Source: Alistipes sp.
Lineage (GTDB): Bacteria; Bacteroidota; Bacteroidia; Bacteroidales; Rikenellaceae
Assembly (NCBI GenBank): GCA_017505725.1
Contig: JAFVOR010000043.1
Span: 1 to 64,000 of the forward strand
DNA: 64,000 nt
Direction: 5' to 3'
Shown: positions 34,391 through 59,274 of the stretch, in pieces
How positions within the stretch are numbered: position 1 is the first letter of the stretch
How the letters are laid out: each line of letters starts with the position of its first letter
Notes under the pieces: generated by a model
Databases searched by the model: none
What the model was told of the DNA's origin: nothing
Seen by the model: the letters and a program-made list of their open reading frames with translations, nothing else
Translations under genes and position numbers: made by a program

Positions 34391-35206
34391 ATGAGAGGTG
34401 CAGTTAAGATATTGGTTGTGGCCCTTGTGGCTCTATTGTCGGCGCAGAGCGTGTATGGCTGGGATGCAAAAGGTCATACAACAATCGGCCACATTGCAGA
34501 TCGCAACCTCACGCCCAAAGCTCGCAAGATGGTGAGTCGCTATCTTGGTCATTCGCTCGCCTACTACGCTTCGTGGATGGATCAGGTGCGCTATGTCGAT
34601 GCCTACCACCACACTGCGCGTTGGCACTCGGTGGGAGTTAAGGATAATACACTTATGCCATCGGACCTCACCGGCTCGAAAGCCTTCTATGGCACACCAT
34701 TGCAGAACGATGACTATGGCATTGTTCGATTGGAGCAGATTATGGAGCAGATGAAGGGGTATCGCAACTTGTCGGACTCGACGGTGGCGGTAAACCTCAA
34801 GTGTATGATTCATCTTGTGGGCGATATGCACTGCCCGGGACACACCTTCTTTGCCGACCAGTCGATGCAGTACTATATCAAGGATGGAGGCAAGCGTGTC
34901 CACTACCACAACTTCTTCGATGCCGCCTATGCCCGCTTCAACAAGGGCGTTTCACCAGTCAGATTCTTCGATACGAACTGCCGCTTGAGCAAGGCGGAGG
35001 TCGAGCTGTTGTGTGGTGGTAGTGTCGAGGAGTGGATTCGAAGCAATTTCCCGCAGTACCGCGAGTGTTATAAGCTCCTGCCAAAGGGTCGAGATTTCAG
35101 AGAGTTGTCCGATGCGGAGCAAAAGCGAGTAGGTGAGATAACTGACAGACTCCACGTCGAGGCGGGCTATCGCCTGGCGCATATTGTGAACGAGATTTTC
35201 AGGTAG
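34391..35206 (+). CDS. secreted S1/P1 nuclease-like protein, type A (array 1, solo)
   Basis: 271 residues; signal peptide 1-23, mature Trp24. Ligand positions W24, H29, D64, H79, H141-D145-H151 (HLVGDMHCPGH) and H173/D177 (HNFFD) are all filled. The last motif reads FFD instead of the usual FWD. It has no B partner: dtd follows, then a second A very like it (both read GHIADR, LTPKARKM, HSLAYYASW). It begins 3 nt after the RluA-type gene, so it is probably co-transcribed with cdd. C-terminal helix AGYRLAHIVNEIF. Confidence 0.88.
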   Translation: MRGAVKILVVALVALLSAQSVYGWDAKGHTTIGHIADRNLTPKARKMVSRYLGHSLAYYASWMDQVRYVDAYHHTARWHSVGVKDNTLMPSDLTGSKAFYGTPLQNDDYGIVRLEQIMEQMKGYRNLSDSTVAVNLKCMIHLVGDMHCPGHTFFADQSMQYYIKDGGKRVHYHNFFDAAYARFNKGVSPVRFFDTNCRLSKAEVELLCGGSVEEWIRSNFPQYRECYKLLPKGRDFRELSDAEQKRVGEITDRLHVEAGYRLAHIVNEIFR

Positions 35207-35224
35207 ATTTAACAAAAAGCAGTT

Positions 35225-35677
35225 ATGCGTATCATAATACAGAGGGTGCAACGATGCAGTGTCGAGGTCGAGGGTCGAATCATCGGCGAGATAGGCAAGG
35301 GTATGGCTATCCTGCTCGGCATCGAGGATGCCGACACACAGGAGGATATCGACTGGTTGTGCGGCAAGATTTCGCGTCTACGCATCTTTGATGATGAGAA
35401 TGGGGTGATGAATCTCGACATTCAGCAGACCGAGGGTAGGGTGATTGTGATAAGTCAGTTTACGCTCTTTGCCTCGACCAAGAAGGGCAACCGTCCATCG
35501 TATATCCGCTCGGCGGGTGAAGTTTTCGCGCGCCCTATGTACGAGAAGTTCTTGGCAACCCTCTCGGGAGTGCTTGGCTCAGAGGTCGAGCACGGCGAGT
35601 TTGGTGCCGATATGAAGGTGTCGCTCGTGAATGACGGACCGGTAACGATTTGTATAGATTCAAAAAATAGAGAGTAG
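35225..35677 (+). CDS. dtd: D-aminoacyl-tRNA deacylase
   Basis: A 150-residue DTD that frees tRNA from wrongly attached D-amino acids and glycine. Both active-site motifs are present: VISQFTLFAST and LVNDGPVTICID. The length is standard. It is the only unrelated gene inside the nuclease-fold array, 18 nt after the first A and 2 nt before the second. Because those two A genes are close relatives, dtd either was caught between duplicates or marks the ancestral insertion point. Confidence 0.93.
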   Translation: MRIIIQRVQRCSVEVEGRIIGEIGKGMAILLGIEDADTQEDIDWLCGKISRLRIFDDENGVMNLDIQQTEGRVIVISQFTLFASTKKGNRPSYIRSAGEVFARPMYEKFLATLSGVLGSEVEHGEFGADMKVSLVNDGPVTICIDSKNRE

Positions 35678-35679
35678 TT

Positions 35680-36489
35680 ATGAAGAGATTATTGATTGCA
35701 GTGTTGGCTTTGGTTGCGCTCTTGTCTGCACCTCGCGCCTATGCGTGGGATGCTTCGGGACACGGTACCATTGGCCATATTGCCGACCGTCACCTTACGC
35801 CTAAGGCGCGTAAGATGTGCAGCAAGTACTTGGGTCACTCGTTGGCCTATTACGCCTCGTGGCTCGATCAGTGGCGTTACTCGCACGAGTATCACCACAC
35901 TGCCCGTTGGCACGCAGTGGGCATCAAGGATGGTGAGTTTGTACCAGGTCAGGTGGCAGGCGATATTGCCGACTTCCTTGCGCCTCTCACCCCCGATGAC
36001 CACGGTGTGGCACGAATGGAGCAGATGCTCGCCAATCTCGAGCACTACCGCAATATGCCCGATTCGGCAGTTACGGTCAACCTCAAGTGCCTCATCCATA
36101 TGGTGGGCGATATGCACTGCCCGGGCCACGTATTCTACTATGGCTTGAAGCAGTACGAGATGAAGGCCTACGACGAGCCTATCCGCTTCCACGGATTTAT
36201 CGATAAGTGCTATGGTCGCTTCAACAAGGGTAAGACCTCGGATGAGTTCTACCACAAGTATTGCCGATTGACCAAAGCGGAGATTGCCGAGTTGTGTCAG
36301 GGCGATATGGGCGATTGGGTGAAGCAGAATACCCCGGTATTCAAGGAGTGCTACACACTGCTTTCGCCAACCATCGACTATCGTGACCTCCCCGAGCAGA
36401 ACAAGTTCCGCCTGAAGGAGATTACCGACGAGTTGCGTGTCAAGGCGGGCTATCGTCTGGCCTATGTTATGAACCAAATTTTCAAATAG
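35680..36489 (+). CDS. secreted S1/P1 nuclease-like protein, type A (array 2, pair 1)
   Basis: 269 residues; signal peptide 1-22 ending RAYA. Zinc ligands: W23, H28, D63, H78, H140-D144-H150 (HMVGDMHCPGH), H171/D175 (HGFID, with Ile where most paralogs have Trp). Closest relative by eye is the gene at 34391. The start lies 2 nt after dtd, so translational coupling is likely. Followed after 10 nt by its B partner. C-terminal AGYRLAYVMNQIF. Confidence 0.88.
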   Translation: MKRLLIAVLALVALLSAPRAYAWDASGHGTIGHIADRHLTPKARKMCSKYLGHSLAYYASWLDQWRYSHEYHHTARWHAVGIKDGEFVPGQVAGDIADFLAPLTPDDHGVARMEQMLANLEHYRNMPDSAVTVNLKCLIHMVGDMHCPGHVFYYGLKQYEMKAYDEPIRFHGFIDKCYGRFNKGKTSDEFYHKYCRLTKAEIAELCQGDMGDWVKQNTPVFKECYTLLSPTIDYRDLPEQNKFRLKEITDELRVKAGYRLAYVMNQIFK

Positions 36490-36499
36490 AGGATAGAGT

Positions 36500-37261
36500 A
36501 TGAAGTTAAGATATCTGATTTTGGCAGCTATGGCAGCTGTTGCAGTTGAGGCCTCGGCGTGGACCACCGAGGTGAACAAGGCTATTCTGATGCTTGCCGA
36601 GGAGAACCTCTCGCGCAAGGCACAGAAGGAGGTTGAGGCGGTGCTGGGTGCGCCACTTTCGTCGATTGAGTTCGCACAAAAGGGCAAGAGCAAGACCCGT
36701 CTTAACGAGGGCGGAAAGTCGGTCACTACCGATGCAAAGGATGGAGTCGTGGTGTTGGAGAAGGCGTTGGCAACGCTCCGCACAAAGGGTGCATCGGCCG
36801 AGGAGCGTAAGTCGGCGTTGTTGGCCGTAGCGGAGCATACGGTCGACATCCACTGTCCGGCAAATATCCTTATCGACAAACATCTCGAGGGTGACTTCAA
36901 GTTTGGTCGCGAGAATGGTCGACCACGCACTTCGCGTTGGTTCAAGGTTGACAAGCGTGAGTGGCAGTCGATGTGGCACAACCTCTTCCACAAGCAGTTG
37001 GGTGCTTGGTCGGCAGATATGTATATCTACGATTGGCACATCGCAACCAAGGGTATGGCCAAGCAGTTCAAGAAGCAACCTGTGGCTCCTCGCCTTTGGG
37101 CAGAGCAGACAGGTGAGGTGGTACTCAAGTCGCTTAAGGTCTTTAAGCCTAATGCCGAGGTCGGTCGTATGCAGATAACAAATCTCGAGGAGGTGAACAA
37201 CAGCCTTATGTACAAGGCGGCATTCCGCCTTGCTGATGTTTTGAATCAAACATTGAAATAA
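36500..37261 (+). CDS. degenerate S1/P1-fold secreted protein, type B (pair 1)
   Basis: 253 residues; signal peptide 1-20 (ASA), mature Trp21. The H6-equivalent is Asn26. D41 and H56 have no counterpart. In TVDIHCPAN the Asp (116) is kept, but the first His is Glu and the last is Asn; HxFWD is replaced by WQSMWH. This is the most divergent early B, yet AAFRLADVLNQTL at the C-terminus and the exposed Trp show common descent. A three-zinc catalytic centre cannot form, so a pseudoenzyme or binding role is more likely. Confidence 0.72.
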   Translation: MKLRYLILAAMAAVAVEASAWTTEVNKAILMLAEENLSRKAQKEVEAVLGAPLSSIEFAQKGKSKTRLNEGGKSVTTDAKDGVVVLEKALATLRTKGASAEERKSALLAVAEHTVDIHCPANILIDKHLEGDFKFGRENGRPRTSRWFKVDKREWQSMWHNLFHKQLGAWSADMYIYDWHIATKGMAKQFKKQPVAPRLWAEQTGEVVLKSLKVFKPNAEVGRMQITNLEEVNNSLMYKAAFRLADVLNQTLK

Positions 37262-37275
37262 AATAAAACCAACCT

Positions 37276-38070
37276 ATGAAAACTTTACGAAACCTAACGC
37301 TTCTGCTCTTGGCACTTGTGGTGTCGCAGAGCGCAATGGCTTGGGGTAAGTGGGGACATCGCATTTCGGCCTACATTGCCGAGCAGCACCTCACCGAGAA
37401 GGCCAACTCGGAGTGTCGTCGTTACTTGAAGCACACGCTTCCGTACCACGCTTCGTGGCAGGACTATTGGCGTAACTGCGAGGGCTTTGGTGAGATTTGC
37501 ACCGCCCACTCGCACTATGTGAACAAGGATTTCTCGTTGCGTGGCAAGGGTAACCCCGATCGTGATCCTGTGTCGCGTGTCGACAAGATTACACGACAGA
37601 TGGAGAAGGGCCAATACCTCAATATGCCCGACTCGATTGTGGCTATGAACCTCAAACTCCTCATCCATATGGTGACCGATATGCACTGCCCTGGTCACGT
37701 GACCTATCCGAAGGAGATGAACTTCCCGGTGAAGATGTCGCTCAAGATTGGCGGAAAAAAGGTTGCTCGTCACAAGTTCTGGGATGGTGCACCTATGTAC
37801 CTCCATCCGAAGTGGCGTATTGAGCAGTTTGCCAAGGCCTACGACACCTACTCGGAGAAGCAGATTAAGAAGTTCTGCAAGGGTGATCCTTACAAGTGGG
37901 GCTATGCCAATGCGTGCAAGATGGTCGAGACATTCGACTATTGGAACGAGGGCGAAGATTTCAAGAAGATGAGCAAGGAGAGGCGTCAAGTCATTGAGGA
38001 TATGACTCACAAGCAGTTGGCTGTGGGTGGCTATCGTTTGGCTCACATTCTCAATCGTATTTTCAAATAA
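37276..38070 (+). CDS. secreted S1/P1 nuclease-like protein, type A (pair 2)
   Basis: 264 residues; signal peptide 1-22 (SAMA), Trp23. Ligands W23, H28, D63, H78, H131-D135-H141 (HMVTDMHCPGH) and H166/D170 (RHKFWD). The loop after the second His, HSHYVNKDF, and the MYLHPKWR segment are shared with the A genes at 38869 and 40537, defining a subgroup (WQDYWR instead of WMDxWR). Full-length and intact. Confidence 0.88.
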   Translation: MKTLRNLTLLLLALVVSQSAMAWGKWGHRISAYIAEQHLTEKANSECRRYLKHTLPYHASWQDYWRNCEGFGEICTAHSHYVNKDFSLRGKGNPDRDPVSRVDKITRQMEKGQYLNMPDSIVAMNLKLLIHMVTDMHCPGHVTYPKEMNFPVKMSLKIGGKKVARHKFWDGAPMYLHPKWRIEQFAKAYDTYSEKQIKKFCKGDPYKWGYANACKMVETFDYWNEGEDFKKMSKERRQVIEDMTHKQLAVGGYRLAHILNRIFK

Positions 38071-38082: not shown

Positions 38083-38859
38083 ATGATGAAAAAGATTATA
38101 GCAGTTCTGTTTGCCTTGGCAATGGTGACAAGCGAGGCTTATGCATTCAAGTCGCTTGGTCACCAGACCATTGCCGCTTTGGCGCAGCGCCATCTCACCG
38201 ATAAGGCCAAGACGGAGGTTCAAAACATCCTTAAGTCGGATATGAGCAAGCACGCTATGTGGCTCTACTCTCTGCGCAAGAGAGTCGATTTGGCATATGT
38301 TCAGCAGTGGCAGTACACTACGCTCAACGCCGAGGGTAAGTCTGTAACAACCGATGCAAACGACGGCATTGTGGCACTCGAGAGTGCTGTGAAGGTGCTT
38401 CGCAACCGCAAGAACGAGAGCGACTCGTTGGTGTTGGCATCGTTGCACACGGTCATTCAGATCGTTGGCGACATCCACAACCCTTCTAATATCCGCATCG
38501 AGGGTAACGAGGCGACCAAGGGCTTTAAGTTTACACTCGTTAGTCGCAAGAAGAAGTCGGAGATGTCGTGGAGAAATATGTGGCACAACTACGCAAATCG
38601 CCACGATGTATTCTCGGCCGACTACTATGCTACCGATGTCGAGATCTTTGCAGGCGACAAGAAGAGCGAGTACGAGAAGGGTACACCGCGCTTCTGGGCC
38701 GAGAATGTTGGCGAGGATGTAGTTCGTTGCCTCGAGGTTGTATCTCCGGGCGCCGAGGTGTCGATGATCGATTACAACAACTACGAGTATCTCTACGACA
38801 AGTGTATGGCCAAGGCGGGTTATCGTCTGGCCGCTCTATTGAACGATATTTTCAAATAA
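38083..38859 (+). CDS. degenerate S1/P1-fold secreted protein, type B1 with N-terminal Phe (pair 2)
   Basis: 258 residues; signal peptide 1-21 (EAYA), mature Phe22 in place of Trp. H27 (H6) is kept in FKSLGHQ. D41 is Tyr62, H56 is Gln77, and HxxxDxHCPxH has become QIVGDIHNPSN with only Asp130 kept. HxFWD is WRNMWH. The first few lines still look like type A, so it is an intermediate between A and the later B2 proteins. C-terminal AGYRLAALLNDIF. Confidence 0.75.
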   Translation: MMKKIIAVLFALAMVTSEAYAFKSLGHQTIAALAQRHLTDKAKTEVQNILKSDMSKHAMWLYSLRKRVDLAYVQQWQYTTLNAEGKSVTTDANDGIVALESAVKVLRNRKNESDSLVLASLHTVIQIVGDIHNPSNIRIEGNEATKGFKFTLVSRKKKSEMSWRNMWHNYANRHDVFSADYYATDVEIFAGDKKSEYEKGTPRFWAENVGEDVVRCLEVVSPGAEVSMIDYNNYEYLYDKCMAKAGYRLAALLNDIFK

Positions 38860-38868: not shown

Positions 38869-39669
38869 ATGAAGCAGAAGATAACAACCTTTATTGTAGC
38901 TTGTGTAGCTCTGTGTTGTGTGCAGAGCGCAATGGCTTGGGGTAGCTGGGGTCACCACATCGCTGCCTACATTGCCGAGAAACACTTGACACCCGAGGCG
39001 AATGCGAAGTGTCAGCACTATCTTAAGCAGAATTTGCCACATTTCTCATCCTGGCAGGACTATTGGCGACACAGCGATCCGTTCAAGGAGATTAGCTTCT
39101 GGCATTCGAGCTATGTAAACAAGAAATTCGATGTCATCGGCTACAAGGGCGATGAGACTCGCGATGCCGCATATCAGGTCAATCGCATTATCAAGGAGAT
39201 GGAGAAGGGCAAGTATAAGCAGATGTCCGACTCGTTGGTGGCCGTAAACCTCAAACTTCTGATCCATATGGTGGGTGATATGCACTGCCCAAGCCACATT
39301 GTATATACCAAGGATTTTGGTATGGCGAGTTACTCCATAAAGGTTAAGGGCAAGAAGTGTGGCCGTCACAAGTTCTGGGATGCGAGTCCACAATATATGC
39401 ATCCGAAGTGGAAGGCCGACCGCTTTGTTAAGGCGTATGATACCTACTCGCCAAAGGAGATAAAGAAGATTTGCAAGGGAAATCCCTACAAGTGGAGCGT
39501 ACAGAACGCAAATAATATACTGAAGACAGCGAGCTATTGGGAGCGCGGAGCAGAATTTACAAAGCTCAGCAAGGAGCAGCGTAAGAATATCGATGAGACA
39601 TTGCACGAGCAGTTGGCTTTTGCGGGTTATCGTTTGGCTTCGGTACTCAACAAGATTTTCAGCAAATAA
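38869..39669 (+). CDS. secreted S1/P1 nuclease-like protein, type A (pair 3)
   Basis: 266 residues; signal peptide 1-23 (SAMA), Trp24. Ligands W24, H29, D64, H79, H133-D137-H143 (HMVGDMHCPSH), H167/D171 (RHKFWD). Same WQDYWR subgroup as the A genes at 37276 and 40537, sharing KQMSDSLVAVNLKLLIHMVG with the latter. The KGKK segment before the last ligand pair is shared too. Starts 9 nt after the previous B. Confidence 0.88.
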   Translation: MKQKITTFIVACVALCCVQSAMAWGSWGHHIAAYIAEKHLTPEANAKCQHYLKQNLPHFSSWQDYWRHSDPFKEISFWHSSYVNKKFDVIGYKGDETRDAAYQVNRIIKEMEKGKYKQMSDSLVAVNLKLLIHMVGDMHCPSHIVYTKDFGMASYSIKVKGKKCGRHKFWDASPQYMHPKWKADRFVKAYDTYSPKEIKKICKGNPYKWSVQNANNILKTASYWERGAEFTKLSKEQRKNIDETLHEQLAFAGYRLASVLNKIFSK

Positions 39670-39687
39670 ATGGGGGTGAAAAGTTAT

Positions 39688-40494
39688 ATGAAAAAGATAG
39701 TATTACTTATAGCGTCGTCGATATTGTTTGTGGGTGACGCATTGGCATTCAATGCTTTCGGACACCAATCCATAGCGGCATTGGCCGATAAATATCTCTC
39801 CGATAACGCCAAGAAGGAGGTTAAGGCGATCCTCAAAACCGATATGGTCAAGGCTTCAACCTGGTTGAATACTTTGCGCAAGAAGCAGGGTTTGACCCAC
39901 ACTAATGGTTGGCACACTACTACGCTCGACGCCAATGGTAAGTCGACCACAATGGCCGAGAACGATGGTATTGTTCAGCTCGAGAAGTCGATTGCGGTAT
40001 TGCGCGATCGTGCAAATCAGAGCGACTCGCTTGTTCAGGCCTCGCTTCGTACCGTGATTCACCTTGTCGGCGATTTGCACTGCATATCGCACATCTATAT
40101 CGATGGCAACGAGCCGACAAAGGGTTTTACCTACAAGACCTGGAACGAACTTACTGCCGAGGGCAAAGGCTTCTATTGCAGCAAGACCTACGACACAAGT
40201 TGGTACAAACTCTGGGAGAACAAGTTTGCAGGGCGTTATACACTATTTACCCCTCAATACTATGGTGACGACATCGATATTTTTGCCAATGAGAAGAAGG
40301 CAGAGTACGAGAAGGGTACACCTCGTTTTTGGGTCGAGAATGTGGGCGAGGATGTTCTCCGTGCGCTCGAGACCTTCCAACCGGGGAAGGTCGTGCCTGC
40401 ACAGATGAATGAGCGTCAGGAGCCGGTACACAATCGTTGTATGGCCAAGGCAGCCTATCGTTTGGCTGCTCTTCTCAACGATATATTCAAATAG
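39688..40494 (+). CDS. degenerate S1/P1-fold secreted protein, type B1 with N-terminal Phe (pair 3)
   Basis: 268 residues from the ATG at 39688 (MKKIVLL); an ATG six codons earlier abuts the upstream stop. Signal peptide 1-20 (ALA), mature Phe21. It keeps H26, H76 and all of H125-D129-H135 (HLVGDLHCISH) but has Asn61 for D41, and the last pair HxxxD is Tyr173/Glu177 (YKLWE). With six of nine ligands left it is the least decayed B type and may still bind one or two zinc ions. Confidence 0.76.
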   Translation: MKKIVLLIASSILFVGDALAFNAFGHQSIAALADKYLSDNAKKEVKAILKTDMVKASTWLNTLRKKQGLTHTNGWHTTTLDANGKSTTMAENDGIVQLEKSIAVLRDRANQSDSLVQASLRTVIHLVGDLHCISHIYIDGNEPTKGFTYKTWNELTAEGKGFYCSKTYDTSWYKLWENKFAGRYTLFTPQYYGDDIDIFANEKKAEYEKGTPRFWVENVGEDVLRALETFQPGKVVPAQMNERQEPVHNRCMAKAAYRLAALLNDIFK

Positions 40495-40536: not shown

Positions 40537-41346
40537 ATGAAGAAGATTATTACATCAGTGATTGCGCTTGTGGTACTGTTTGGTGTGCAGAGCGCAAAGG
40601 CGTGGGGAACTTGGGGACACCACGCAGTGGCATTTATTGCCGAGAAACATCTCACCCCCGAGGCGAAGGCAAAGTGTGAGCAGTATCTTCAGTTCTCGTT
40701 GCCACACTACTCGTCGTGGCAGGACTATTGGCGCAATAGCCACCCATTCGAGGAGATTACCCATTGGCATATGAATCGTGTAAACAAGAACTTTGTGACC
40801 ATAGGTTCCAAGGGCAATGTTTCGCGCGACGCTGTGACTCAGATCAACCGCATTGTCAAGGAGATGGAGAAGGGTAAGTACAAGCAGATGAGCGACTCGC
40901 TGGTTGCTGTCAACCTCAAACTCCTCATCCATATGGTGGGCGATATGCACTGCCCTTGCCATATGGCCTACTCGAAGGACTTCTTGCAGCAGCGTGGCGT
41001 GAAGGGTGTGTCAATCTTTGTTAAGGGTAAGAAGTACGACTACCACAAGTTCTGGGATGCGGCACCGCAGATTATGAATCCAAAGTGGAAGGCTGACGAC
41101 TACTTGAAGGCTTGTGACACCTACTCGCCAAAGCAGATCAAGAAGATCAGCAAGGGCAATGTCTACAAGTGGAGTGTGGACAATGCTAGGCGCGAGGTGG
41201 TGATGTTCGACTTCTGGGAGCGCCACGAGGAGCTCACCAAGATGTCGAAGGAGCGTCGCGAGCGCATCAACGACCTTATGTATCAGCAGCTCGCATACGC
41301 AGGCTACCGATTGGCGGCAACACTCAACAAACTTTTTGCAAAATAA
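40537..41346 (+). CDS. secreted S1/P1 nuclease-like protein, type A (pair 4)
   Basis: 269 residues; signal peptide 1-22 (QSAKA), Trp23. Ligands W23, H28, D63, H78, H132-D136-H142 (HMVGDMHCPCH), H170/D174 (YHKFWD). The bases around the cleavage site, CAGAGCGCAAAGGCGTGGGG (40588-40607), recur unchanged in three other A genes. The 42-nt gap before it is one of the longer ones in the array, but no TAnnTTTG promoter is present in it. Confidence 0.88.
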   Translation: MKKIITSVIALVVLFGVQSAKAWGTWGHHAVAFIAEKHLTPEAKAKCEQYLQFSLPHYSSWQDYWRNSHPFEEITHWHMNRVNKNFVTIGSKGNVSRDAVTQINRIVKEMEKGKYKQMSDSLVAVNLKLLIHMVGDMHCPCHMAYSKDFLQQRGVKGVSIFVKGKKYDYHKFWDAAPQIMNPKWKADDYLKACDTYSPKQIKKISKGNVYKWSVDNARREVVMFDFWERHEELTKMSKERRERINDLMYQQLAYAGYRLAATLNKLFAK

Positions 41347-41367: not shown

Positions 41368-42150
41368 ATGAAAAAGATTATATTCACAATGTTTGCCTTG
41401 GTAGTGGCAAACGCAGCAGTGGCATTCAACCCATTTGGTCACCAGACCATTGCGGCTTTGGCCGATAAGTATCTCAGCGACAAGGCAAAGAGTGAGGTTA
41501 AGGCAATCCTTGGCACCGGTATGGTCGAGGAGGCGGTATGGCTCAACACACTTCGCAAGAGCGCACCCGAGACCAAGTCGTGGCACTTCTTTGTGCTTGC
41601 CGAGAATGGCAAGTCGGTTACAACTGACGCAAACGATGGCGTAGTGGTACTCGAGAAGAATATCGAGGTGTTGCGTAATCGTGCAGCGCATACTCCTGCC
41701 GAGGTTAAGGACGCTTTGCGTACCGTAATCCACCTTACAGGCGATATCCACTGCATCTCGCACATCCACATCGATGGCATCCAGGCTAGCAAGGGTTTCC
41801 AGTTTATGCACTGGAACGAGTTGGAGGGTAAGCGTTACAAGGCTTGGAAGTCGCAGTGGTACTCCTTCTGGAACAACGCCTTCTGCAATCGCCACAGCTT
41901 CTTCTCGCCGCAGTACTATGGCGACGATATCGACATCTACGCTAATGCCAAGAAGGCAGAGTACGAGAAGGGTACACCACGCTTCTGGGCAGAGAATACA
42001 GGCGAGGATGTAGTACGCGCCTTGGAGTCTATTACCCCGGGTGCAGTTGTTCCTACACAGATTCTTCAGCTTCAGGAGTTCAACCACACCAAGTGTATGG
42101 CTAAGGCTTCGTACCGTTTGGCTGCTTTGTTGAACGAGATTTTCAAATAG
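41368..42150 (+). CDS. degenerate S1/P1-fold secreted protein, type B1 with N-terminal Phe (pair 4)
   Basis: 260 residues; signal peptide 1-19 (AVA), mature Phe20. H25, H73 and the triad H122-D126-H132 (HLTGDIHCISH) are kept; D41 is Asn60 and the final pair is Tyr165/Asn169 (YSFWN). Very similar to the B1 gene at 39688, including the block KKAEYEKGTPRFWAEN. It has two residues fewer between the positions of D41 and H56. Probably not catalytic in the usual way. Confidence 0.76.
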   Translation: MKKIIFTMFALVVANAAVAFNPFGHQTIAALADKYLSDKAKSEVKAILGTGMVEEAVWLNTLRKSAPETKSWHFFVLAENGKSVTTDANDGVVVLEKNIEVLRNRAAHTPAEVKDALRTVIHLTGDIHCISHIHIDGIQASKGFQFMHWNELEGKRYKAWKSQWYSFWNNAFCNRHSFFSPQYYGDDIDIYANAKKAEYEKGTPRFWAENTGEDVVRALESITPGAVVPTQILQLQEFNHTKCMAKASYRLAALLNEIFK

Positions 42151-42169
42151 ACAATAAATGAGACCTTAT

Positions 42170-42970: not shown

Positions 42971-42993
42971 TCACAGCTATTATATATAGGTAT

Positions 42994-43794: not shown

Positions 43795-43818
43795 CAAACT
43801 TAAAACTTAAAGACAATT

Positions 43819-45417: not shown

Positions 45418-45420
45418 GAT

Positions 45421-46197: not shown

Positions 46198-46221
46198 AGA
46201 CTCATCTAACATATATTAGAT

Positions 46222-47061: not shown

Positions 47062-47066
47062 ACGCT

Positions 47067-47810: not shown

Positions 47811-47820
47811 ACCATATAAG

Positions 47821-48612: not shown

Positions 48613-48623
48613 GAGGGCTCGAT

Positions 48624-49415: not shown

Positions 49416-49446
49416 AAAAATTAACCTACAAACTACCCATTAAATT

Positions 49447-50268: not shown

Positions 50269-50270
50269 TT

Positions 50271-51071: not shown

Positions 51072-51121
51072 AGATGAATAGAGCAACCGAAAAATAGATT
51101 AACTCTTAAACTATCTATAAA

Positions 51122-51916: not shown

Positions 51917-51921
51917 CGACT

Positions 51922-52722
51922 ATGAAGAGGATAATTATATTGACAGTAGCACTCTTTGCCGGCCTATTCTCGGCAGGGGCGTGGTCACACAGTATGGATA
52001 AGGGCGTATTGCTCTTTGCTCAGAAGCATCTCACACCCGAGACCAAGAGCCTGGTGGCACAATATGTTGGCGACGACATAACAAAGGCTGAGGGTTACCT
52101 CGTAGCGCAGCGCAAGGCTAACCGCTTGCTTCACACCGAGGGTTGGCACACGCTCCATCTCGATAGCAACCTGCAACCAGCGGCAAAGGACGATAACGAT
52201 GCCTTGGTGCAGATCGAAAAGGCTTTGGAGGTGATGCGTAACCGCACAAAGCATAGTAAGTCGGAGGTTAGCTTTGCAATCAAGACCGTGATGAATCTGG
52301 TGATTGATATGCACAACCTCTCGAATGTAGCACTCGAGGAGTATCCGCTCTCGGGTACCGATTTCGAGTTTATGATGACCAAGGGCTCGGCTCGTGGCAA
52401 GGGCGGAAAGAAGATTCCGTACCGCTGGAAGACTTTGTGGACATACCGCTATGTCAGCTTCCACGCTGCCTACTCACCGGAGATGTGGCTCGAGGAGTTG
52501 GGCGTGATGTTTGGCGACAAGAGGGCTGAACTCTCGGCCGGCACATTGCGCGATTGGGTTGGCGACGTCGGCAACTACTCGAAATCTGTCTACGAGCATC
52601 TACGCAAGGAGAACAATCTGTTTGTGCACGCAACTATTCACTCGTATGATCTTTTCCATATGTCGTGCGTAGGTAAGGCTGCCTACCGCCTGGCTGCGTT
52701 ATTGAACGATAACTTAAAATAG
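51922..52722 (+). CDS. degenerate S1/P1-fold secreted protein, type B2 (pair 10)
   Basis: 266 residues; signal peptide 1-20 (AGA), Trp21. Asp26 replaces H6 (WSHSMD), His76 (H56) is kept in GWHTLHLD, and Asp129 is kept in LVIDMHNLSN. The HxFWD position reads KTLWTYR. Sister of the B gene at 50271. Cleavage exactly before the Trp is again well supported by LFSAGA. C-terminal AAYRLAALLNDNL. Confidence 0.74.
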   Translation: MKRIIILTVALFAGLFSAGAWSHSMDKGVLLFAQKHLTPETKSLVAQYVGDDITKAEGYLVAQRKANRLLHTEGWHTLHLDSNLQPAAKDDNDALVQIEKALEVMRNRTKHSKSEVSFAIKTVMNLVIDMHNLSNVALEEYPLSGTDFEFMMTKGSARGKGGKKIPYRWKTLWTYRYVSFHAAYSPEMWLEELGVMFGDKRAELSAGTLRDWVGDVGNYSKSVYEHLRKENNLFVHATIHSYDLFHMSCVGKAAYRLAALLNDNLK

Positions 52723-52730
52723 AGCATAAA

Positions 52731-53507
52731 ATGAAAAAACTACTATTACTTGTTGCGATTGTTGCAACAATCGCTACCGCAAAGGGTTGGGGTGGTTATG
52801 GCCACTCGTGTGCGGCATATATTGCCGAGCAACATCTTACACCCGAGGCCAAGGCCAAGTGTGAGCACTACCTTCAGCACTCGTTCGTATTCTACGCTTC
52901 GTGGATGGATCAGTGGCGTCATATCGAGCCCTACAAGGAGTCGAATGCTTGGCACGTCATCTATGTAGATGAGAATTGGAAGCTCGACACCTCGAAGAAA
53001 AAGTATGCCGAGTATCAGAGTCAGCGTATATGGGACGAGTTGAAGAACTACAAGAATCTGCCAGATTCATTGGTGCGCCAGAATCTTATCTACCTGATTC
53101 ATATGGTGCCCGATTTCCACTGCCCTGTGCACACCTTTTTCAAGAAGGGACTTCACCCCGAGCGCAAATATACCTTGAAACTCAAGGGCAAGAGCTACTC
53201 GTTGCATACCTTCTGGGATCGTTCGCCGAATATTGGCCGCACAAAGTGGACTATGGAGCGTTATGCTAAGGAGATTGATGTGATATCTCCAAAGTTACAG
53301 AAGAAGTATATGAAGGGAAATGTGGCAAAGTGGGCTAACGATGCTCTCAAGCAGGCAAACCGCCTCTATGCCATCACACCTGAAGGCACCGAGATACATC
53401 GTATGCCGAAGGCCAAGTTGGCAGAGGTGCATAGCCTCACCGATGAGATGATCCTCAAGGGTGCATACCACTTGGCATATATGATTAACGATATTTTCAA
53501 AGAGTAA
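52731..53507 (+). CDS. secreted S1/P1 nuclease-like protein, type A (pair 11)
   Basis: 258 residues, the shortest A; signal peptide 1-19 (AKG), Trp20. Ligands W20, H25, D60, H75, H124-D128-H134 (HMVPDFHCPVH), H159/D163 (LHTFWD). It carries Pro before the metal Asp (xPD) as in several A genes of the 3' half. Its short signal peptide is more like those of type B. The C-terminal helix reads AYHLAYMINDIF, with His for the usual Arg, a possible lesion at a conserved position. Confidence 0.86.
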   Translation: MKKLLLLVAIVATIATAKGWGGYGHSCAAYIAEQHLTPEAKAKCEHYLQHSFVFYASWMDQWRHIEPYKESNAWHVIYVDENWKLDTSKKKYAEYQSQRIWDELKNYKNLPDSLVRQNLIYLIHMVPDFHCPVHTFFKKGLHPERKYTLKLKGKSYSLHTFWDRSPNIGRTKWTMERYAKEIDVISPKLQKKYMKGNVAKWANDALKQANRLYAITPEGTEIHRMPKAKLAEVHSLTDEMILKGAYHLAYMINDIFKE

Positions 53508-53520
53508 GGAGGGCAAATAT

Positions 53521-54285
53521 ATGAAGAGAATATTTCTTGCAATAGCCTTCGTGGCACTGTTTTTCAGTGCCAAGGCGTGGACAGGTTTGGTCGACAATGC
53601 GTCGTACATCATCGCCCGCAAGTATATGAACAAGCAGGCGTTGGCGGAGTTTAATCGTATCTCCGCATTGAAGAATAGCGTTGATTATAAGTGGGTTGCA
53701 GATAGTGCAGCACGAGCAATGCTCGACGCCGAATTGCACTCGACAACCACTGATGAGAAGGATATCGTAGTGCGACTCGAGAGGGCTGTTGAGGTGCTTC
53801 GCAATCGCGCAAACCACACCCCTGGTGAGCAGTACAAGGCGTTGGTTGCGGTGCAGAAACTCATCGTCAATCTTCACACCGTATCGTGCATTGCTATCGA
53901 TGGCATCGAGCAGTCGAAGGCCGACTTCTCGTTCACTTGGACTGCAGGCAAGGAGGGATCGAAGAAGCACGAGAAGCGAGGTCCGCTCACCTGGCATAAG
54001 CTCTGGAGCAGCAACTTCTGCTTCTGGCATCAGGGCTGGTCGTCGGAGTACTACGCCTACGATATCGACCTTCGTTTCGGTAAGCAGCGTGAGGCCCTTA
54101 TGCAGGGCGCTCCGCGCGACTGGGCGCACGATATGGGTGTGTTGGCAAAGCCTATGTATGAGTGGGCGCAGCCGGGTATGGTGCTCAAGCACGAGCCACG
54201 ACTCAATCTCGAAGATCTACATCTCAACAATGTTGCCAAGGCGGGATACCGTTTGGCTTACTTGATGAATACAATCCTAAAATAG
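53521..54285 (+). CDS. degenerate S1/P1-fold secreted protein, type B2 (pair 11)
   Basis: 254 residues; signal peptide 1-19 (AKA), Trp20. Asp25 replaces H6 (WTGLVD). The D120-equivalent is Asn117 (LIVNLHTVSC), so this B has lost that acidic ligand as well. H56 is not evident. It shares IAIDGIEQSKADFSF and YAYDIDLRFG with other B types. C-terminal AGYRLAYLMNTIL. Together with the genes at 45421 and 48624 it shows that metal ligands are dispensable in type B. Confidence 0.7.
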   Translation: MKRIFLAIAFVALFFSAKAWTGLVDNASYIIARKYMNKQALAEFNRISALKNSVDYKWVADSAARAMLDAELHSTTTDEKDIVVRLERAVEVLRNRANHTPGEQYKALVAVQKLIVNLHTVSCIAIDGIEQSKADFSFTWTAGKEGSKKHEKRGPLTWHKLWSSNFCFWHQGWSSEYYAYDIDLRFGKQREALMQGAPRDWAHDMGVLAKPMYEWAQPGMVLKHEPRLNLEDLHLNNVAKAGYRLAYLMNTILK

Positions 54286-54293
54286 AACATACG

Positions 54294-55094
54294 ATGAAAA
54301 AGTTATCACTTCTGATTCTTTCGCTCGTAGCAGTTATGGGCGTGCAGAGCGCAAAGGCGTGGGGAGGCTTCGGACATAGTGCCATCACCTATGTTGCCGA
54401 GCAACATCTCACACCCGAGGCGAAGGCAAAGTGTCGCTACTACCTCAAACACACCATCGTCTACTATGCTTCGTGGATGGATTATTGGCGCTCAGTGCCC
54501 GAGTATAGGTCTGTGAATAGTCAGCACGGAATATCTGCTATGCCGGATGGTCGCACTCTCGATTGGGGCGGCAAACCAAAGGGCAAAGCTATGGGATACC
54601 TCAAAAATGCCCTCGAGGAGTTAGGTAATGGCAACTACAAGAATCTGCCCGATTCGGTTGTGCGTCAGCGACTTATCAATATGGTGCACTATCTGCCCGA
54701 TCTCCATTGTCCTGTTCACGTCAGCTTCCCAAAGAAGGAGTTTGCACACTACCGCTATAGCCTCCTTCGCAAGGGTAAGAAGACGAGCTATCACGGCTTC
54801 TGGGATGGTTCACCAAACTTCAAGCGCGGCAAGTGGGATGTGGCCACCTATGCTGCCGAGGTTGATAAGGTGAAGCCAAAGCAGGCGCAAAAGTGGCAGA
54901 AGGGTACTCTCGACGATTGGGCACGCGATATCATCAAGCAAGCACATCGTAGCTACAAGATTACCCCAAAGGATACCGATATCAGCAAATTAACCGATGC
55001 GGATGTTGCAAAGGTGCACGCACTCTCCGACGAGATGGCACTCAAGGCTGCCTATCGTCTGGCCTATGTGCTTAATACAATCTTTGCGGAGTAG
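54294..55094 (+). CDS. secreted S1/P1 nuclease-like protein, type A (pair 12)
   Basis: 266 residues from MKKLSLL at 54294; a longer frame from 54162 would overlap the upstream B by over 120 nt and bury the signal peptide. Signal peptide 1-22 (QSAKA), Trp23. Ligands W23, H28, D63, H78, H132-D136-H142 (HYLPDLHCPVH), H167/D171 (YHGFWD). The residue before H78 is Gln rather than Trp. The 20-mer CAGAGCGCAAAGGCGTGGGG at the cleavage site (54345-54364) matches three other A genes. Confidence 0.88.
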   Translation: MKKLSLLILSLVAVMGVQSAKAWGGFGHSAITYVAEQHLTPEAKAKCRYYLKHTIVYYASWMDYWRSVPEYRSVNSQHGISAMPDGRTLDWGGKPKGKAMGYLKNALEELGNGNYKNLPDSVVRQRLINMVHYLPDLHCPVHVSFPKKEFAHYRYSLLRKGKKTSYHGFWDGSPNFKRGKWDVATYAAEVDKVKPKQAQKWQKGTLDDWARDIIKQAHRSYKITPKDTDISKLTDADVAKVHALSDEMALKAAYRLAYVLNTIFAE

Positions 55095-55115
55095 AATATC
55101 ATAATGAGAAGAACT

Positions 55116-55904
55116 ATGAAAAAGATACTATTGGCAGTAGCATTTGTTGCGGTTGCATTCAGCGCAAGTGCTTGGAACAGACAGCAAGACGAGGCGGTGG
55201 TGATAGCGGCTTCGAAGCACCTCACGCCGAAGGCCAAGATGGTGGTCGATGGCTATTTGGGTACCGACTACACCGATGACCTGGTCTACATCTACAACCT
55301 CGAGCGCAGAAAGCGTTCGCCATATTCGACTGAGGTACACTATATTCACCTCGATGATAAGTTGCAGATTATTGCGGGCGATGGTGACGACGCAGTCAGG
55401 GCCATCGAGGAGGCTCTCGCCATCATCAAGAAGGGTACAGGCTCACGCCACGAGATAACCAATGCCTTCCGCACCATCATCTGCCTGATGTGCGATATGC
55501 ACTGCCTCTCGAATGTGCGCCTCTCGAATGTGCCACACTCGCAGAGCGACTTCGATGTTCAGGTGCAGCGTACAGCCTCGGGTCCGAAGATGAAGGAGGT
55601 GTCGCGCGTCAAGTGGTCGAAGTTTTGGGGCGGATACAATGGTCATCACAGGGGCTTCTTTGCCGAGTTGTGGGCCGAGGAGATGGAGGTTTGCCACGGT
55701 GCCGACTATGCACAGATCACTAAGGGTGGTCTGCGCGATTGGGCGTCACGGAATGGTGCTATTGCAGCAGATCTCTACACTCGCATCAACCCTACCAATG
55801 TGGTGACTCGCGTCGAGTTTTTGAAGTTGGAGGAACTCCACTTCGAGATGATGGCGACTGCAGGATTTCGTTTGGCGGCTTTGTTGAATGATACGATCAA
55901 ATAA
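55116..55904 (+). CDS. degenerate S1/P1-fold secreted protein, type B2 (pair 12)
   Basis: 262 residues from MKKILLA at 55116; an ATG four codons earlier is less fitting. Signal peptide 1-19 (ASA), Trp20. Asp25 replaces H6 (WNRQQD), His75 (H56) is kept in VHYIHLD, Asp127 is kept in LMCDMHCLSN. It resembles the B genes at 43819, 56823 and 58462 (YxxDDLVYIY region). The last 57 bases plus the following gap and the next start are nearly repeated at 57552-57691. Confidence 0.74.
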   Translation: MKKILLAVAFVAVAFSASAWNRQQDEAVVIAASKHLTPKAKMVVDGYLGTDYTDDLVYIYNLERRKRSPYSTEVHYIHLDDKLQIIAGDGDDAVRAIEEALAIIKKGTGSRHEITNAFRTIICLMCDMHCLSNVRLSNVPHSQSDFDVQVQRTASGPKMKEVSRVKWSKFWGGYNGHHRGFFAELWAEEMEVCHGADYAQITKGGLRDWASRNGAIAADLYTRINPTNVVTRVEFLKLEELHFEMMATAGFRLAALLNDTIK

Positions 55905-55987
55905 CCTAATAATCAAACAATTAAACACCGTATTTTATGAGAACAAAATGTCTTATTTTAACGCTCTGCCTTGTTGCAGTAATGGGG
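55848..55987 (+). repeat. junction repeat, copy 1 (end of a B gene, gap, start of the next A)
   Basis: About 140 bases spanning the 3' end of the B at 55116, a 32-nt gap and the signal-peptide region of the A at 55937 match 57552-57691. The offset is constant at 1704 with no gaps, and I count roughly a dozen differences by eye. The gene bodies on either side are far more diverged. Confidence 0.8.
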
Positions 55988-56800
55988 CCACAGAGCGCAA
56001 AGGCGTGGGGCACGGTGGGACACCACTGCGCGGCATATATTGCCGAGCAACATCTCACCCCCGAGGCAAAAGAGAAGTGTCGCTACTATCTCCAACACAC
56101 GCTATCTTATTATGCAATGTGGATGGATCGTTGGCGTGGCATCAAGCAGTTCGAAGCCATCAATAATGGTCACTCGATTCGCACAACCAATGATGGCAGA
56201 AAGATCACTTGGGAGGCGTTCACCTCCTCTACTATGGGCGATGCTATAGCTACTCCTCCGGGACGCGCTATGGGACACCTCTACAATGCACTCAATGAGT
56301 TGGGTGGTGGCAAGTATAAGAATTTGCCCGATTCGGTTGTCCGTCAGCGACTTATCAATATGATTCACTATGTTCCCGATATGCACTGTCCTTCGCATTG
56401 CGGTTTCCCCGAGAAGTTCTATCCGCCAACCTCGAAATATAAGATTACTCGCAAGGGCAAGTGGGCAAATTATCACTCTTTCTGGGATGGTTCGCCAGGT
56501 TTTATGCGTAAGAATATAACCTTGAAGAAGTATGCCGAGATGGTCGATGTCGTATCGCCAAAGGAGTCGAAAAAGTGGCAGAAGGGACTTGAGAAGAGAG
56601 ACCTTAGGGCTGGCATCGGCTCGTGGGGTAAGGGTTGTATTCAGAGAGCAAAGGAGGCTTACGAAATCATTCCGCAGGGAACCGATCTTGCAAAGATGCC
56701 TAAGGAGCAACAGAAGCAGGTACACGACTTGGCTGACCGTGCTATTTTGGTAGGTGCATATCGCTTGGCTTATGTGTTGAATACCATTTTCAAGGAGTAG
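55937..56800 (+). CDS. secreted S1/P1 nuclease-like protein, type A (pair 13), longest member
   Basis: 287 residues; signal peptide 1-23 (QSAKA), Trp24. Ligands W24, H29, D64, H79, H144-D148-H154 (HYVPDMHCPSH), H180/D184 (YHSFWD). Two insertions explain the length: one after H79 (TWEAFTSSTMGDAIATPPGR) and one near residue 215-225 (LEKRDLRAGIG). The residue before H79 is Gly rather than Trp. The 5' end is nearly identical to that of the A at 57641, but the bodies differ. Confidence 0.88.
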   Translation: MRTKCLILTLCLVAVMGPQSAKAWGTVGHHCAAYIAEQHLTPEAKEKCRYYLQHTLSYYAMWMDRWRGIKQFEAINNGHSIRTTNDGRKITWEAFTSSTMGDAIATPPGRAMGHLYNALNELGGGKYKNLPDSVVRQRLINMIHYVPDMHCPSHCGFPEKFYPPTSKYKITRKGKWANYHSFWDGSPGFMRKNITLKKYAEMVDVVSPKESKKWQKGLEKRDLRAGIGSWGKGCIQRAKEAYEIIPQGTDLAKMPKEQQKQVHDLADRAILVGAYRLAYVLNTIFKE

Positions 56801-56822
56801 TAACGTTGTAAGAGAGAGAAAA

Positions 56823-57608
56823 ATGAAGAAGATATTTTTGTTTGTGGCATTTGCGATGATGGTATCCGTTGCAAATGCGTGGCATAAGAACTGCGAGGCC
56901 GGAGTGGTAGCATTGGCCGCAAAACACCTCACTCCTGAGGCTAAAGCTCTCGTTGAGAAGCATTTGGGCACTACCTACGAGGATGATGTTCACTATCTCT
57001 ACCTACTCGAGAAAAAGAAGAAGGCCACCTTCTCAAAGGAGATTCACTATCTCCACCTCGATAAGAATTTTCAACCATTGAGTGTCGAGGGTGACGATGC
57101 CTATGCAGCAATCGAGAAGGCTTTGCAGGTGGTGCGTGCGTACAAATCGCACTCTGATGCCGAGGTCAAAATGGCTTTGCGTTATGTTGTGGGGCTGATG
57201 CTCGACATTCACAACTTGTCGCAGATTCGAATCGAGAATATTGCCCATTCGCAGGCTGATTTCAAGTTCAAGCGCCAACAAAGCGAGTACAAACCTAATG
57301 TTTACAAGAACTACAGATGGTCGAACTTTTTCACCCTGCAGAGCAATTTGTATGCTGTATTCCACGCCGATTTGTGGGCCGAGGATATGGAGTTGTGTCA
57401 CGGAAAGCATAAGGCTGACTTCTCGAAGGGCGACTTGCGCGATTGGGTAGCGGCAAATGGTGCTATGGCAGCCGAGTTGTTGGCGGAAATTAATCCCGAG
57501 AAGATTATGGCAATGCGTCGATTCCTCGAGTTGGACTACCTCAACTACGATATGATGGCGACTGCAGGATTTCGTTTGGCAGCTTTATTGAATGACACGA
57601 TCAAATAA
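56823..57608 (+). CDS. degenerate S1/P1-fold secreted protein, type B2 (pair 13)
   Basis: 261 residues; signal peptide 1-19 (ANA), Trp20. Glu25 replaces H6 (WHKNCE). His75 (H56) is kept in IHYLHLD, Asp128 is kept in LMLDIHNLSQ. It shares HLTPEAKALVEKHLG with type A and IRIENIAHSQADFKF with other B2 genes. The 3' end is part of the junction repeat at 57552. C-terminal AGFRLAALLNDTI. Confidence 0.74.
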   Translation: MKKIFLFVAFAMMVSVANAWHKNCEAGVVALAAKHLTPEAKALVEKHLGTTYEDDVHYLYLLEKKKKATFSKEIHYLHLDKNFQPLSVEGDDAYAAIEKALQVVRAYKSHSDAEVKMALRYVVGLMLDIHNLSQIRIENIAHSQADFKFKRQQSEYKPNVYKNYRWSNFFTLQSNLYAVFHADLWAEDMELCHGKHKADFSKGDLRDWVAANGAMAAELLAEINPEKIMAMRRFLELDYLNYDMMATAGFRLAALLNDTIK

Positions 57609-57691
57609 CCTAATAATCAAATAATTAAACACAGTATTTTATGAGAACAAAACGTCTTATTTTGATGCTCTGCCTCGTTGTAGCAATGGGT
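57552..57691 (+). repeat. junction repeat, copy 2
   Basis: Second copy of the B-end/gap/A-start block at 55848-55987. It includes the shared gap words CCTAATAATCAAA and ATTAAACAC and the ATGAGAACAAAA start region. It marks the A-B pair as a duplicating or converting unit of 1704 bp at this place. Confidence 0.8.
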
Positions 57692-58456
57692 CTGCAGAGC
57701 GCAATGGCGTGGGGTGGCTATGGTCACTGCTGTATAGCCTATGTAGCCGAGCAGCACCTCACACCTGAGGCAAAGGAGAAGTGCCAGCACTACCTCCGTC
57801 ATTCACTCGCTTACTACGCTTCGTGGATGGATTATTGGAGAGGCTCGTTGCACTTCAAATCGGTAAATGGCGGTCATAGCAACAAGACCACCAAGGATGG
57901 TTATGCCATCAATATGAAGAAGGGTGCTATGAGTCACCTCGTAAGAACTTTGGGTGAACTTGGTAATGGCAACTACAAGAATCTCCCTGATTCGGTGGTG
58001 CGTCAGCGACTCATCAACCTCATTCACTATCTTCCGGATATGCACTGCCCTTCGCACGTGGGCATATCGAAGAAGACCTTCCCGCAGTATGCAAGCAAAA
58101 AGGGCTTCTTCCGCAATGGTAAGTCGGTGAACTATCACTCTTTGTGGGATGCTGCTCCTGCTATGGGTCGCAAGGGTTGGGATATCGATGACTACGCCAA
58201 GGCAGTGGACAAGGTTTCGCGCAAGCAGGCAAAGGCTTGGCAGAGTGGTACCCTTGTGGAGTGGGGTCGCGATATTGCCAAGGGCGGACATCTCGGATAT
58301 CAGCTTCTCCCCGATGGAACCGATGTAACAACGATGGCAAAGAGGGATAAGAAGGCGATGATGGATCACTGCGACAAGATGGCAATGATGGGAGCCTATC
58401 GTTTGGCCTATGTGTTGAACACCATTTTTGCTGACAAAACCATTAAAACCAAGTAG
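57641..58456 (+). CDS. secreted S1/P1 nuclease-like protein, type A (pair 14)
   Basis: 271 residues; signal peptide 1-23 (QSAMA), Trp24. Ligands W24, H29, D64, H79, H129-D133-H139 (HYLPDMHCPSH), H166/D170 (YHSLWD). It shares the NYKNLPDSVVRQRLIN segment with the A genes at 54294 and 55937. The C-terminus is extended past the family helix (NTIFADKTIKTK). Confidence 0.88.
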   Translation: MRTKRLILMLCLVVAMGLQSAMAWGGYGHCCIAYVAEQHLTPEAKEKCQHYLRHSLAYYASWMDYWRGSLHFKSVNGGHSNKTTKDGYAINMKKGAMSHLVRTLGELGNGNYKNLPDSVVRQRLINLIHYLPDMHCPSHVGISKKTFPQYASKKGFFRNGKSVNYHSLWDAAPAMGRKGWDIDDYAKAVDKVSRKQAKAWQSGTLVEWGRDIAKGGHLGYQLLPDGTDVTTMAKRDKKAMMDHCDKMAMMGAYRLAYVLNTIFADKTIKTK

Positions 58457-58461
58457 AGACT

Positions 58462-59274
58462 ATGAAGAAGATAATTTTGTTGTTGGCGTTTGTTGCAACC
58501 GTATCGGTGGCAGGCGCGTGGTCGCGTAAGTGCGATGAGGCTGTGATGATTATTGCGAGCGAGCATCTCACACCCGAGGCCGGCAAGGTGGTGAAGAAAT
58601 ATCTTGGCAAGAGCTTTGCCGACGATGTGCAGTATCTCTATGATACCGAGAGGGTAGAGTTCAAGCAGATGAGCAAGAAGGCTCGCAGGGCGGCCGCGGA
58701 GATTCACTTCCTCCACCTCGATAGCGAGTTTCAGCCTAAGAATGTAAAGGGCAAGGATGCCTTGAAGGCTACCGAGCAGGCTCTCGAGATTATTCGCAAC
58801 CGTAATTCGCACTCGAAGGCAGAGGTTACTACCGCTCTGCGTACAGTGATCAACCTTATGTGCGATATGCACAACCTCTCGAAGATTCGCATCGATGGCA
58901 TCAAGCACTCGTTCCGCGACTTCAAATATACAATCCCTAGTGGCGAGTTTGGACGATATGCCAAGGAGGTCAGGAAGGGTACTTGGTCGAAGACTTGGAA
59001 CTCGTTCGACGGCGGATATGCTTACTTCACAGTGAAGTATTGGGCAAACGATATGCGTATCTTCATTGGTGACAAGTACGCAGATTATGCCAAGGGTTCA
59101 CTCCGTGAGTGGGTTTCGGAGAGTGGTGCATTGGCTGCAAAGTATCTCGAGATCTACAAGCCTAATGTGGTGGTTCCATATATGGATCGTCGTTGGTCGA
59201 CACCTGTAGCTTACGATATGATGATCAAGGGAAGTTGCCGTTTGGCGGCTCTTTTGAACGAGACCATCAAGTAG
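58462..59274 (+). CDS. degenerate S1/P1-fold secreted protein, type B2 (pair 14, last of array)
   Basis: 270 residues; signal peptide 1-19 (AGA), Trp20. Asp25 replaces H6 (WSRKCD). His82 (H56) is kept in IHFLHLD after a seven-residue basic insertion (SKKARRA). Asp135 is kept in LMCDMHNLSK. C-terminal GSCRLAALLNETI has Cys for the usual aromatic. It starts 5 nt after its A and is followed by the array terminator. Confidence 0.74.
   Translation: MKKIILLLAFVATVSVAGAWSRKCDEAVMIIASEHLTPEAGKVVKKYLGKSFADDVQYLYDTERVEFKQMSKKARRAAAEIHFLHLDSEFQPKNVKGKDALKATEQALEIIRNRNSHSKAEVTTALRTVINLMCDMHNLSKIRIDGIKHSFRDFKYTIPSGEFGRYAKEVRKGTWSKTWNSFDGGYAYFTVKYWANDMRIFIGDKYADYAKGSLREWVSESGALAAKYLEIYKPNVVVPYMDRRWSTPVAYDMMIKGSCRLAALLNETIK

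Follow-up and report, generated by a model that had tools for sequence, protein, structure and literature searches.

Results

A tandem array of S1/P1-family genes

The window analysed here is a stretch of 64,000 bases of Alistipes sp. DNA (GenBank assembly GCA_017505725.1, contig JAFVOR010000043.1). It begins at the first base of a contig that measures 95,232 bases, in a draft genome of 2.36 Mb that is 85% complete and 5% contaminated. Positions 34391–59274 (25 kb) are filled by a tandem array of 30 open reading frames (ORFs) of the S1/P1 family, all on the + strand and each encoding 247–287 residues. Because the contig runs to 95,232 bases, the array does not lie at its end. A single non-family gene, at 35225–35677, is found within the array; we call it dtd-like, a label carried over from a first-pass annotation of this DNA that names the gene by its sequence only. 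The same annotation had described thirty one-strand genes with dtd as the sole outsider, and our count of + strand ORFs agrees. What it overlooked is the main feature of the locus: complete and broken zinc sites alternate along the array. Sixteen genes (type A) retain all nine zinc ligands and 14 (type B) retain only one to five of the nine. Types in the following list were assigned by alignment and ligand count.

34391–35206, +, g1, type A, lone, 9/9 zinc ligands
35225–35677, +, dtd-like gene, named from sequence
35680–36489, +, g2, type A, dyad 1
36500–37261, +, g3, type B, dyad 1
37276–38070, +, g4, type A, dyad 2
38083–38859, +, g5, type B, dyad 2
38869–39669, +, g6, type A, dyad 3
39670–40494, +, g7, type B, dyad 3
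40537–41346, +, g8, type A, dyad 4
41368–42150, +, g9, type B, dyad 4
42158–42970, +, g10, type A, lone in the window
42994–43794, +, g11, type A, dyad 5
43819–44607, +, g12, type B, dyad 5
44620–45417, +, g13, type A, dyad 6
45421–46197, +, g14, type B, dyad 6
46222–47061, +, g15, type A, dyad 7
47067–47810, +, g16, type B, dyad 7
47794–48612, +, g17, type A, dyad 8; the likelier start is the second ATG, at 47821
48624–49415, +, g18, type B, dyad 8
49447–50268, +, g19, type A, dyad 9
50271–51071, +, g20, type B, dyad 9
51122–51916, +, g21, type A, dyad 10
51922–52722, +, g22, type B, dyad 10
52731–53507, +, g23, type A, dyad 11
53521–54285, +, g24, type B, dyad 11
54294–55094, +, g25, type A, dyad 12, modelled with AlphaFold2
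55104–55904, +, g26, type B, dyad 12, modelled with AlphaFold2
55937–56800, +, g27, type A, dyad 13
56823–57608, +, g28, type B, dyad 13
57641–58456, +, g29, type A, dyad 14
58462–59274, +, g30, type B, dyad 14

Pfam searches matched PF02265 in 16/16 type A proteins at E ≤ 0.001 and in 11/14 type B proteins at E ≤ 0.01, and matched nothing else in either type; no phospholipase C family was among the hits. The 29.5-bit cut-off for PF02265 in our genome search was exceeded by all 16 A and 3 of the 14 B proteins, and a type B profile matched SmNuc1 at 1.1e-5. Type A genes belong to the S1/P1 fold, and on sequence grounds type B is filed as S1/P1 homologues rather than as S1/P1 nucleases. The S1/P1 fold proposed in the first-pass annotation is thus supported for the array, by these matches and by the structure comparison described below, with nuclease activity itself putative.

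The presumed signal peptides, with ends placed by motif and alignment, are followed by Trp in 16/16 A proteins and by Trp (11/14) or Phe (3/14) in B proteins, as had been claimed. An aromatic residue at this point is a known feature of the family, as the N-terminal Trp27 of SmNuc1 is a zinc binder (PMC11705217). The array proteins are predicted to leave the cytoplasm, with Trp or Phe rather than a lipoprotein Cys after the cleavage site; the earlier description of them as secreted holds only to that extent. The C-terminal A-x-Y/F-R-L-A-x-x-L-N helix, said to be shared by all thirty, is present as a YRLAxxLN-like helix that is general to the S1/P1 family (AGYRLAAWLD in S1 nuclease) and is loose in g18, g23 and g30.

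The draft genome holds 42 S1/P1-family genes, a count obtained after split matches of the genome search were merged by hand: the 30 in the array, one additional A–B dyad (C75:20574–22205, region L032) and 10 others elsewhere.

Two interleaved types with complete and broken zinc sites

Zinc ligands were located by aligning the proteins with SmNuc1, S1 and P1 and by using the ligand list in PMC11705217. Beyond the window, we extended the comparison to 60 fetched regions, two of which held no family protein; leaving out ORFs of <200 residues or open at a region end, this gave 267 full-length family proteins. A complete zinc site was found in 152/158 proteins scored as type A and in 0/109 scored as type B. 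Five of the six incomplete A-scored proteins come from a separate S1/P1 gene cluster, and the sixth has Glu in place of one Asp. Type B proteins in single-dyad loci mostly retain 5–7 of the nine ligands (range 2–7), and those in arrays (up to 14 dyads) retain as few as one. Type B has conserved residues of its own: positions including W169, F148, D192 and E99 (g22 numbering) are conserved at 86–99% in B and are unconserved in A.

The copies in the window are highly diverged, with pairwise identities of 28–66% among A proteins (median 37%) and 23–61% among B proteins (median 30%). In a FastTree phylogeny, all 109 B proteins group in a single clade with a support of 100, and the 113 array-type A proteins do so in another (support 98). 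With the root placed at the midpoint rather than inferred, array A branches from within the other intact S1/P1 paralogues and B is separate from them.

The separate cluster just mentioned has 3–5 S1/P1 genes and was seen in the same genus, in regions L037–L041, L151, L159, L172, L173, L179, L181 and L182. Its second gene, directly after an intact one, has lost zinc ligands (e.g. WHYRTDHME). Since this dead gene falls outside the B clade, the pairing of an enzyme with a dead sister seems to have arisen twice. A fusion of this enzyme and its dead neighbour was dropped, as several alignment rows were split between the halves.

The A→B dyad is the unit of inheritance

The order of types in the window is AABABABABAABABABABABABABABABAB. 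All 14/14 B genes lie directly 3′ of an A gene, an arrangement equalled by 1 of 100,000 shuffles. Across the window and the 60 regions, in 43 runs that contain a B gene, 99/109 B genes directly follow an A gene (10,000 shuffles: mean 53.6, maximum 72). By our own reading, the ten exceptions comprise two at contig or region ends, two with about 2.5 kb inserted, four that are the second of two B genes and two that come first after dtd. The insertions separate A from B in two single-dyad genomes, in L081 (4531–7103) and similarly in L048; an ORF of 598 residues within the L081 insertion has a start that, judged by eye, is lipoprotein-like.

A→B dyads were compared with B→A neighbours. The mirror distance correlation is 0.81 for the 99 A→B dyads versus 0.28 for 65 B→A neighbours, with gaps of ≤150 bp in both sets, and 0.75 versus 0.15 in the window alone. 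Between 15 region sets from 14 genomes we made 104 comparisons, in which neighbours were retained, with a reciprocal best match for both members, in 162/194 dyads and 66/105 B→A pairs, and sequence identities covaried at 0.87 in dyads versus 0.53 in B→A neighbours. The unit of inheritance is the A→B dyad.

Gene g10 is a lone A in the window. Its reciprocal best matches in seven further region sets are paired with those of g12, so that g11 appears to have been inserted between the two (42158–44607). A–B gaps are zero or a positive multiple of three in 45/90 dyads, when a third would be expected; the sequences are related and not independent, and the excess of in-frame gaps may reflect inheritance.

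A long-lived, largely collinear array

By our own reading of best matches at ≥165 bits, type B occurs in 33/180 genomes of the genus, the source genome included. With the B profile at 165 bits, it was found in 0/392 other genomes of our sample of the order, where the best match scored 150. The loci closest to the array B genes are titled Alistipes sp. or Rikenellaceae bacterium, and many come from colon, caecum or rectum; the host animals are sheep, goat, yak, buffalo, deer and cattle.

The dtd-like gene is a conserved neighbour of the locus in the other genomes examined, and the number of dyads at this locus ranges from 1 to 14. In 14 dtd-marked regions, dtd is accompanied by just one A and one B, and in two of these an insertion separates the partners. 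A complete array between dtd and murG is present on one contig in the window and in 11 other genomes. The order seen in the window is kept in 507/534 orthologue pairs (our own total for 14 region sets drawn from 13 other genomes; the lowest is 28/36), and order is concordant in 1379/1550 orthologue pairs when all comparisons among the 15 region sets are taken. The search of related genomes that had been called for did recover like arrays, in separately assembled genomes. These, together with the divergence of the copies and the 95-kb contig, speak against an assembly artefact, a reading that we reject.

Estimates of dN/dS against the nearest relative are 0.06–0.30 for A and B alike; the values are rough, with a finite dS in 29/30 comparisons and many dS >1. 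Judged by these ratios, both A and B are under purifying selection. Purifying selection, the residues conserved specifically in B and the lasting collinearity argue that B is neither decaying nor spare, and as read from these comparisons the array is a long-lived, largely collinear library across species.

The substrate pocket of type A

The nucleobase site of SmNuc1 is formed by Y89, N91 and N161, the last belonging to a GGN loop. The GGN loop is present in 0/113 array A proteins, whose base-binding pocket is remodelled and does not match that of SmNuc1; this is a feature of specificity and does not define the fold. The best-scoring S1/P1 gene in each of 21 genomes (20 of the genus and one of the order) has the GGN loop, WHYxN and xLHxxWD in 21/21 cases. 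As aligned, the loop after His60 is two residues longer in array A. The positions equivalent to Y89 and N91 rest on alignment of the array proteins to SmNuc1, S1 and P1. On this alignment, the base-stacking position (Y89) is the fourth most variable of 237 columns and the zinc ligands are fixed. The residue found there is mostly Y, K, N, P, G, S, R, W or M and is aromatic in 27/113 proteins. An equivalent of Arg74 is kept in 105/113, and N or D occupies the Asn91-equivalent position in 65/113, which argues against a full loss of base binding.

Given that the base-stacking position and the loops near the zinc site vary and the zinc ligands are constant, we infer that the dyads differ in the phosphoester bound. 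The simplest reading is that type A is a zinc phosphoesterase with dyad-specific substrate preference, for which the term nuclease is putative. The idea that all thirty proteins are nucleases is not supported: 14 have no full zinc site, and the 16 A proteins fall in a GGN-less clade with a variable base-stacking residue.

Structure prediction for one dyad

Dyad 12 (g25–g26) was modelled with AlphaFold2 by reading through the stop codon, and gave a pTM of 0.89 and a pLDDT of 91.6; a control model with a non-partner gave a pTM of 0.53. The fold alignment used 44 of the 45 in-frame dyads, one (L136) being dropped for an overlong first ORF. Confident A:B packing is predicted for this dyad. In structure comparison of the model, S1/P1 rows cover the A half and the rows for B are phospholipase C; because one row is shown per entry, the latter are not evidence against S1/P1-likeness of B.

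Flanking genes and transcription

Genes for a member of the cytidine deaminase family and for an RNA pseudouridine synthase lie 5′ of the array, and murG and murC lie 3′ of it. The features that border the array are as follows.

33695–34387, +, RNA pseudouridylate synthase (PF00849, Pfam), 3 bp ahead of g1
59296–59330, +, terminator-like hairpin with a 16-pair stem and a T-rich tail (hairpin scan against shuffles)
59333–59363, +, Bacteroidetes-type promoter-like TTTG-N19-TAnnTTTG ahead of murG (motif scan)
59402–60511, +, murG (TIGR01133)

Intergenic gaps within the array are 0–50 bp when the second ATG of g17 is taken as its start. Among 16 such sites in 45000–60600 (shuffles: mean 12.8 sites), this hairpin has the longest stem. 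Over 31001–60600, the + strand has one strict match to the Bacteroidetes-type promoter consensus, the motif ahead of murG. Short gaps, a closing hairpin and a sole strict promoter match just before murG suggest that the whole array is plausibly one long transcript.

Elsewhere in the window, a surface polysaccharide locus at 7094–20627 includes WecA-like, UDP-glucose dehydrogenase and glycosyltransferase genes and a LicD-like gene (14186–14929), with a low-GC stretch (35–36%) at 12–16 kb inside it. On the − strand, 386–4165 encodes a protein of 1259 residues that carries BspA-type leucine-rich repeats together with a DUF6562 domain.

Discussion

Our preferred reading, which we consider about as likely as not, is that the locus encodes about 14 exported heterodimeric phosphoesterases, each an A enzyme joined to a B pseudoenzyme, with diversified specificity. 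A fuller proposal, possible though we would stop short of calling it probable, is that these heterodimers constitute an ordered, species-spanning library in which one ancestral pair was multiplied into matched partners with different phosphoester specificities, in the manner of a receptor repertoire. Under the preferred reading, 14 A–B dyads and two lone A genes would make up a collinear library expressed from one long transcript. A, with its complete zinc site, and B, with its ligands lost, would be encoded side by side, and after their predicted export the A and B of each dyad would likely assemble into one heterodimeric phosphoesterase. B would be the non-catalytic partner, stabilising or shaping A much as a prozyme does, and the dyads would differ in the phosphodiester or phosphomonoester bound. 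The set could then allow a hindgut commensal to digest phosphate-bearing polymers (nucleic acids or other phosphoesters), either in its periplasm or extracellularly. Of the three guesses offered in the first-pass annotation (dosage, diversity or partner choice), diversity or partner choice fits best, with the A–B dyad as the unit.

Several points weigh against the preferred reading. S1/P1 enzymes are known as monomers. The profiles used to sort the proteins were built from the A and B copies of the window itself, and some arrays hold A genes with no B (two in the window) or B genes with no A. The predicted A:B packing is argued from the pTM of one dyad. The control is imperfect: its partner is presumably cytosolic and poorly modelled (pLDDT ~43–92 per ten-residue block of that half), and it had 2 paired alignment rows versus 44 in the cognate dyad. 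The other four control models have a mean pLDDT of 68–71, and a same-fold A–A comparison is absent, as three trial alignments put single sequences on one half or split them. Natural A–B fusions were sought among the 7,999 best word-sharing candidates of 295–938 residues and none was found, the four matches each covering about half of the query. Finally, duplication of whole A–B blocks would be enough to increase the mirror correlation. Such duplication accounts for part of the signal; the contrast between dyads and B→A neighbours indicates that the cut between A and B is the one avoided.

The alternative that A genes are exported nuclease-type toxins directed at competitors, with each B a cognate immunity protein that binds and blocks its A, seems unlikely to us. 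The A→B order, tight gaps and cognate co-inheritance would all fit such a set, as would the variable number of diverged dyads and the confident packing predicted for A and B. Set against these, both partners have ordinary signal-peptide-like starts, and a scan of flanking genes turned up neither a delivery domain nor a trafficking module nor a release gene. Orthologous dyads mostly keep their order under purifying selection instead of turning over, and it is A, not B, that is in surplus in the window. PADLOC, run on 4 proteins, returned no convincing match. The same scan of 4 of the 30 proteins bears on anti-phage defence, which we rejected: the lone weak match, between g6 and a HamB helicase profile (15 bits), is taken as chance.

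It is also improbable that A and B do not interact, with B proteins acting as independent exported binding proteins for the same ligand class and both partners needed for the same substrate. Retention by B of the fold and of its own conserved residues would be expected on such grounds, but the pTM of 0.89 for the dyad model and the dyad-specific co-evolution speak against it. The reading, allowed by the first-pass annotation, that a scavenging nuclease was amplified for dosage and that the B genes are copies in decay has the tandem layout and the 42 family genes of one draft genome in its favour and is nonetheless strongly disfavoured and very improbable, as copies are only 23–66% identical within a type and maintained by long-term orthology, and B is one clade under purifying selection, with its own conserved residues and non-random placement after A.

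Pseudoenzymes have usually been studied as single regulators of one enzyme. The regions fetched here provide 99 enzyme/dead-sister dyads from one genus, from single dyads to arrays of up to 14, in which the effect of a dead paralogue on its partner and the matching of partners are open to direct mix-and-match testing. Type A also represents a naturally occurring series with a constant zinc site and a varying substrate pocket, which is relevant to the S1/P1 enzymes used in biotechnology.

The first-pass annotation knew of no described system of this kind, and our search of the literature on S1/P1 arrays, S1/P1 pseudoenzymes and secreted nuclease pseudoenzymes likewise turned up nothing relevant. 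The closest relatives by sequence are SmNuc1 and the S1/P1 nuclease family (P1, 1AK0; S1, 5FB9; TBN1; AtBFN2; PF02265), from which array A differs in having no GGN loop and a variable base-stacking position, and the array as a whole differs in its B proteins without zinc ligands and its paired tandem organisation. Zinc phospholipase C (Bacillus cereus PC-PLC) and Het-C domains, whose relation is discussed in PMC3482391, are set apart from the array proteins, which match PF02265 only and include B proteins without zinc ligands. Polymorphic toxin–immunity arrays (see PMC3482391) are alike in comprising many diverged two-gene units. They differ in that the array has no delivery module in its scanned flanks, shows long-term collinearity and consists of partners that are homologous to each other, both with signal-peptide-like starts.

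The prozyme pairs of trypanosomatids have a fold unrelated to S1/P1 and offer a further parallel. In the AdoMetDC–prozyme and deoxyhypusine synthase (DHS) pairs, as presented in PMC5201418 and PMC3663545, an enzyme is activated by a catalytically dead paralogue. The likeness lies in the combination of an active enzyme with a dead paralogue, which for the array is a proposed heterodimer. Each trypanosomatid system is a single, eukaryotic pair; the Alistipes array comprises 14 diverged tandem pairs in which activation of A by B is putative.

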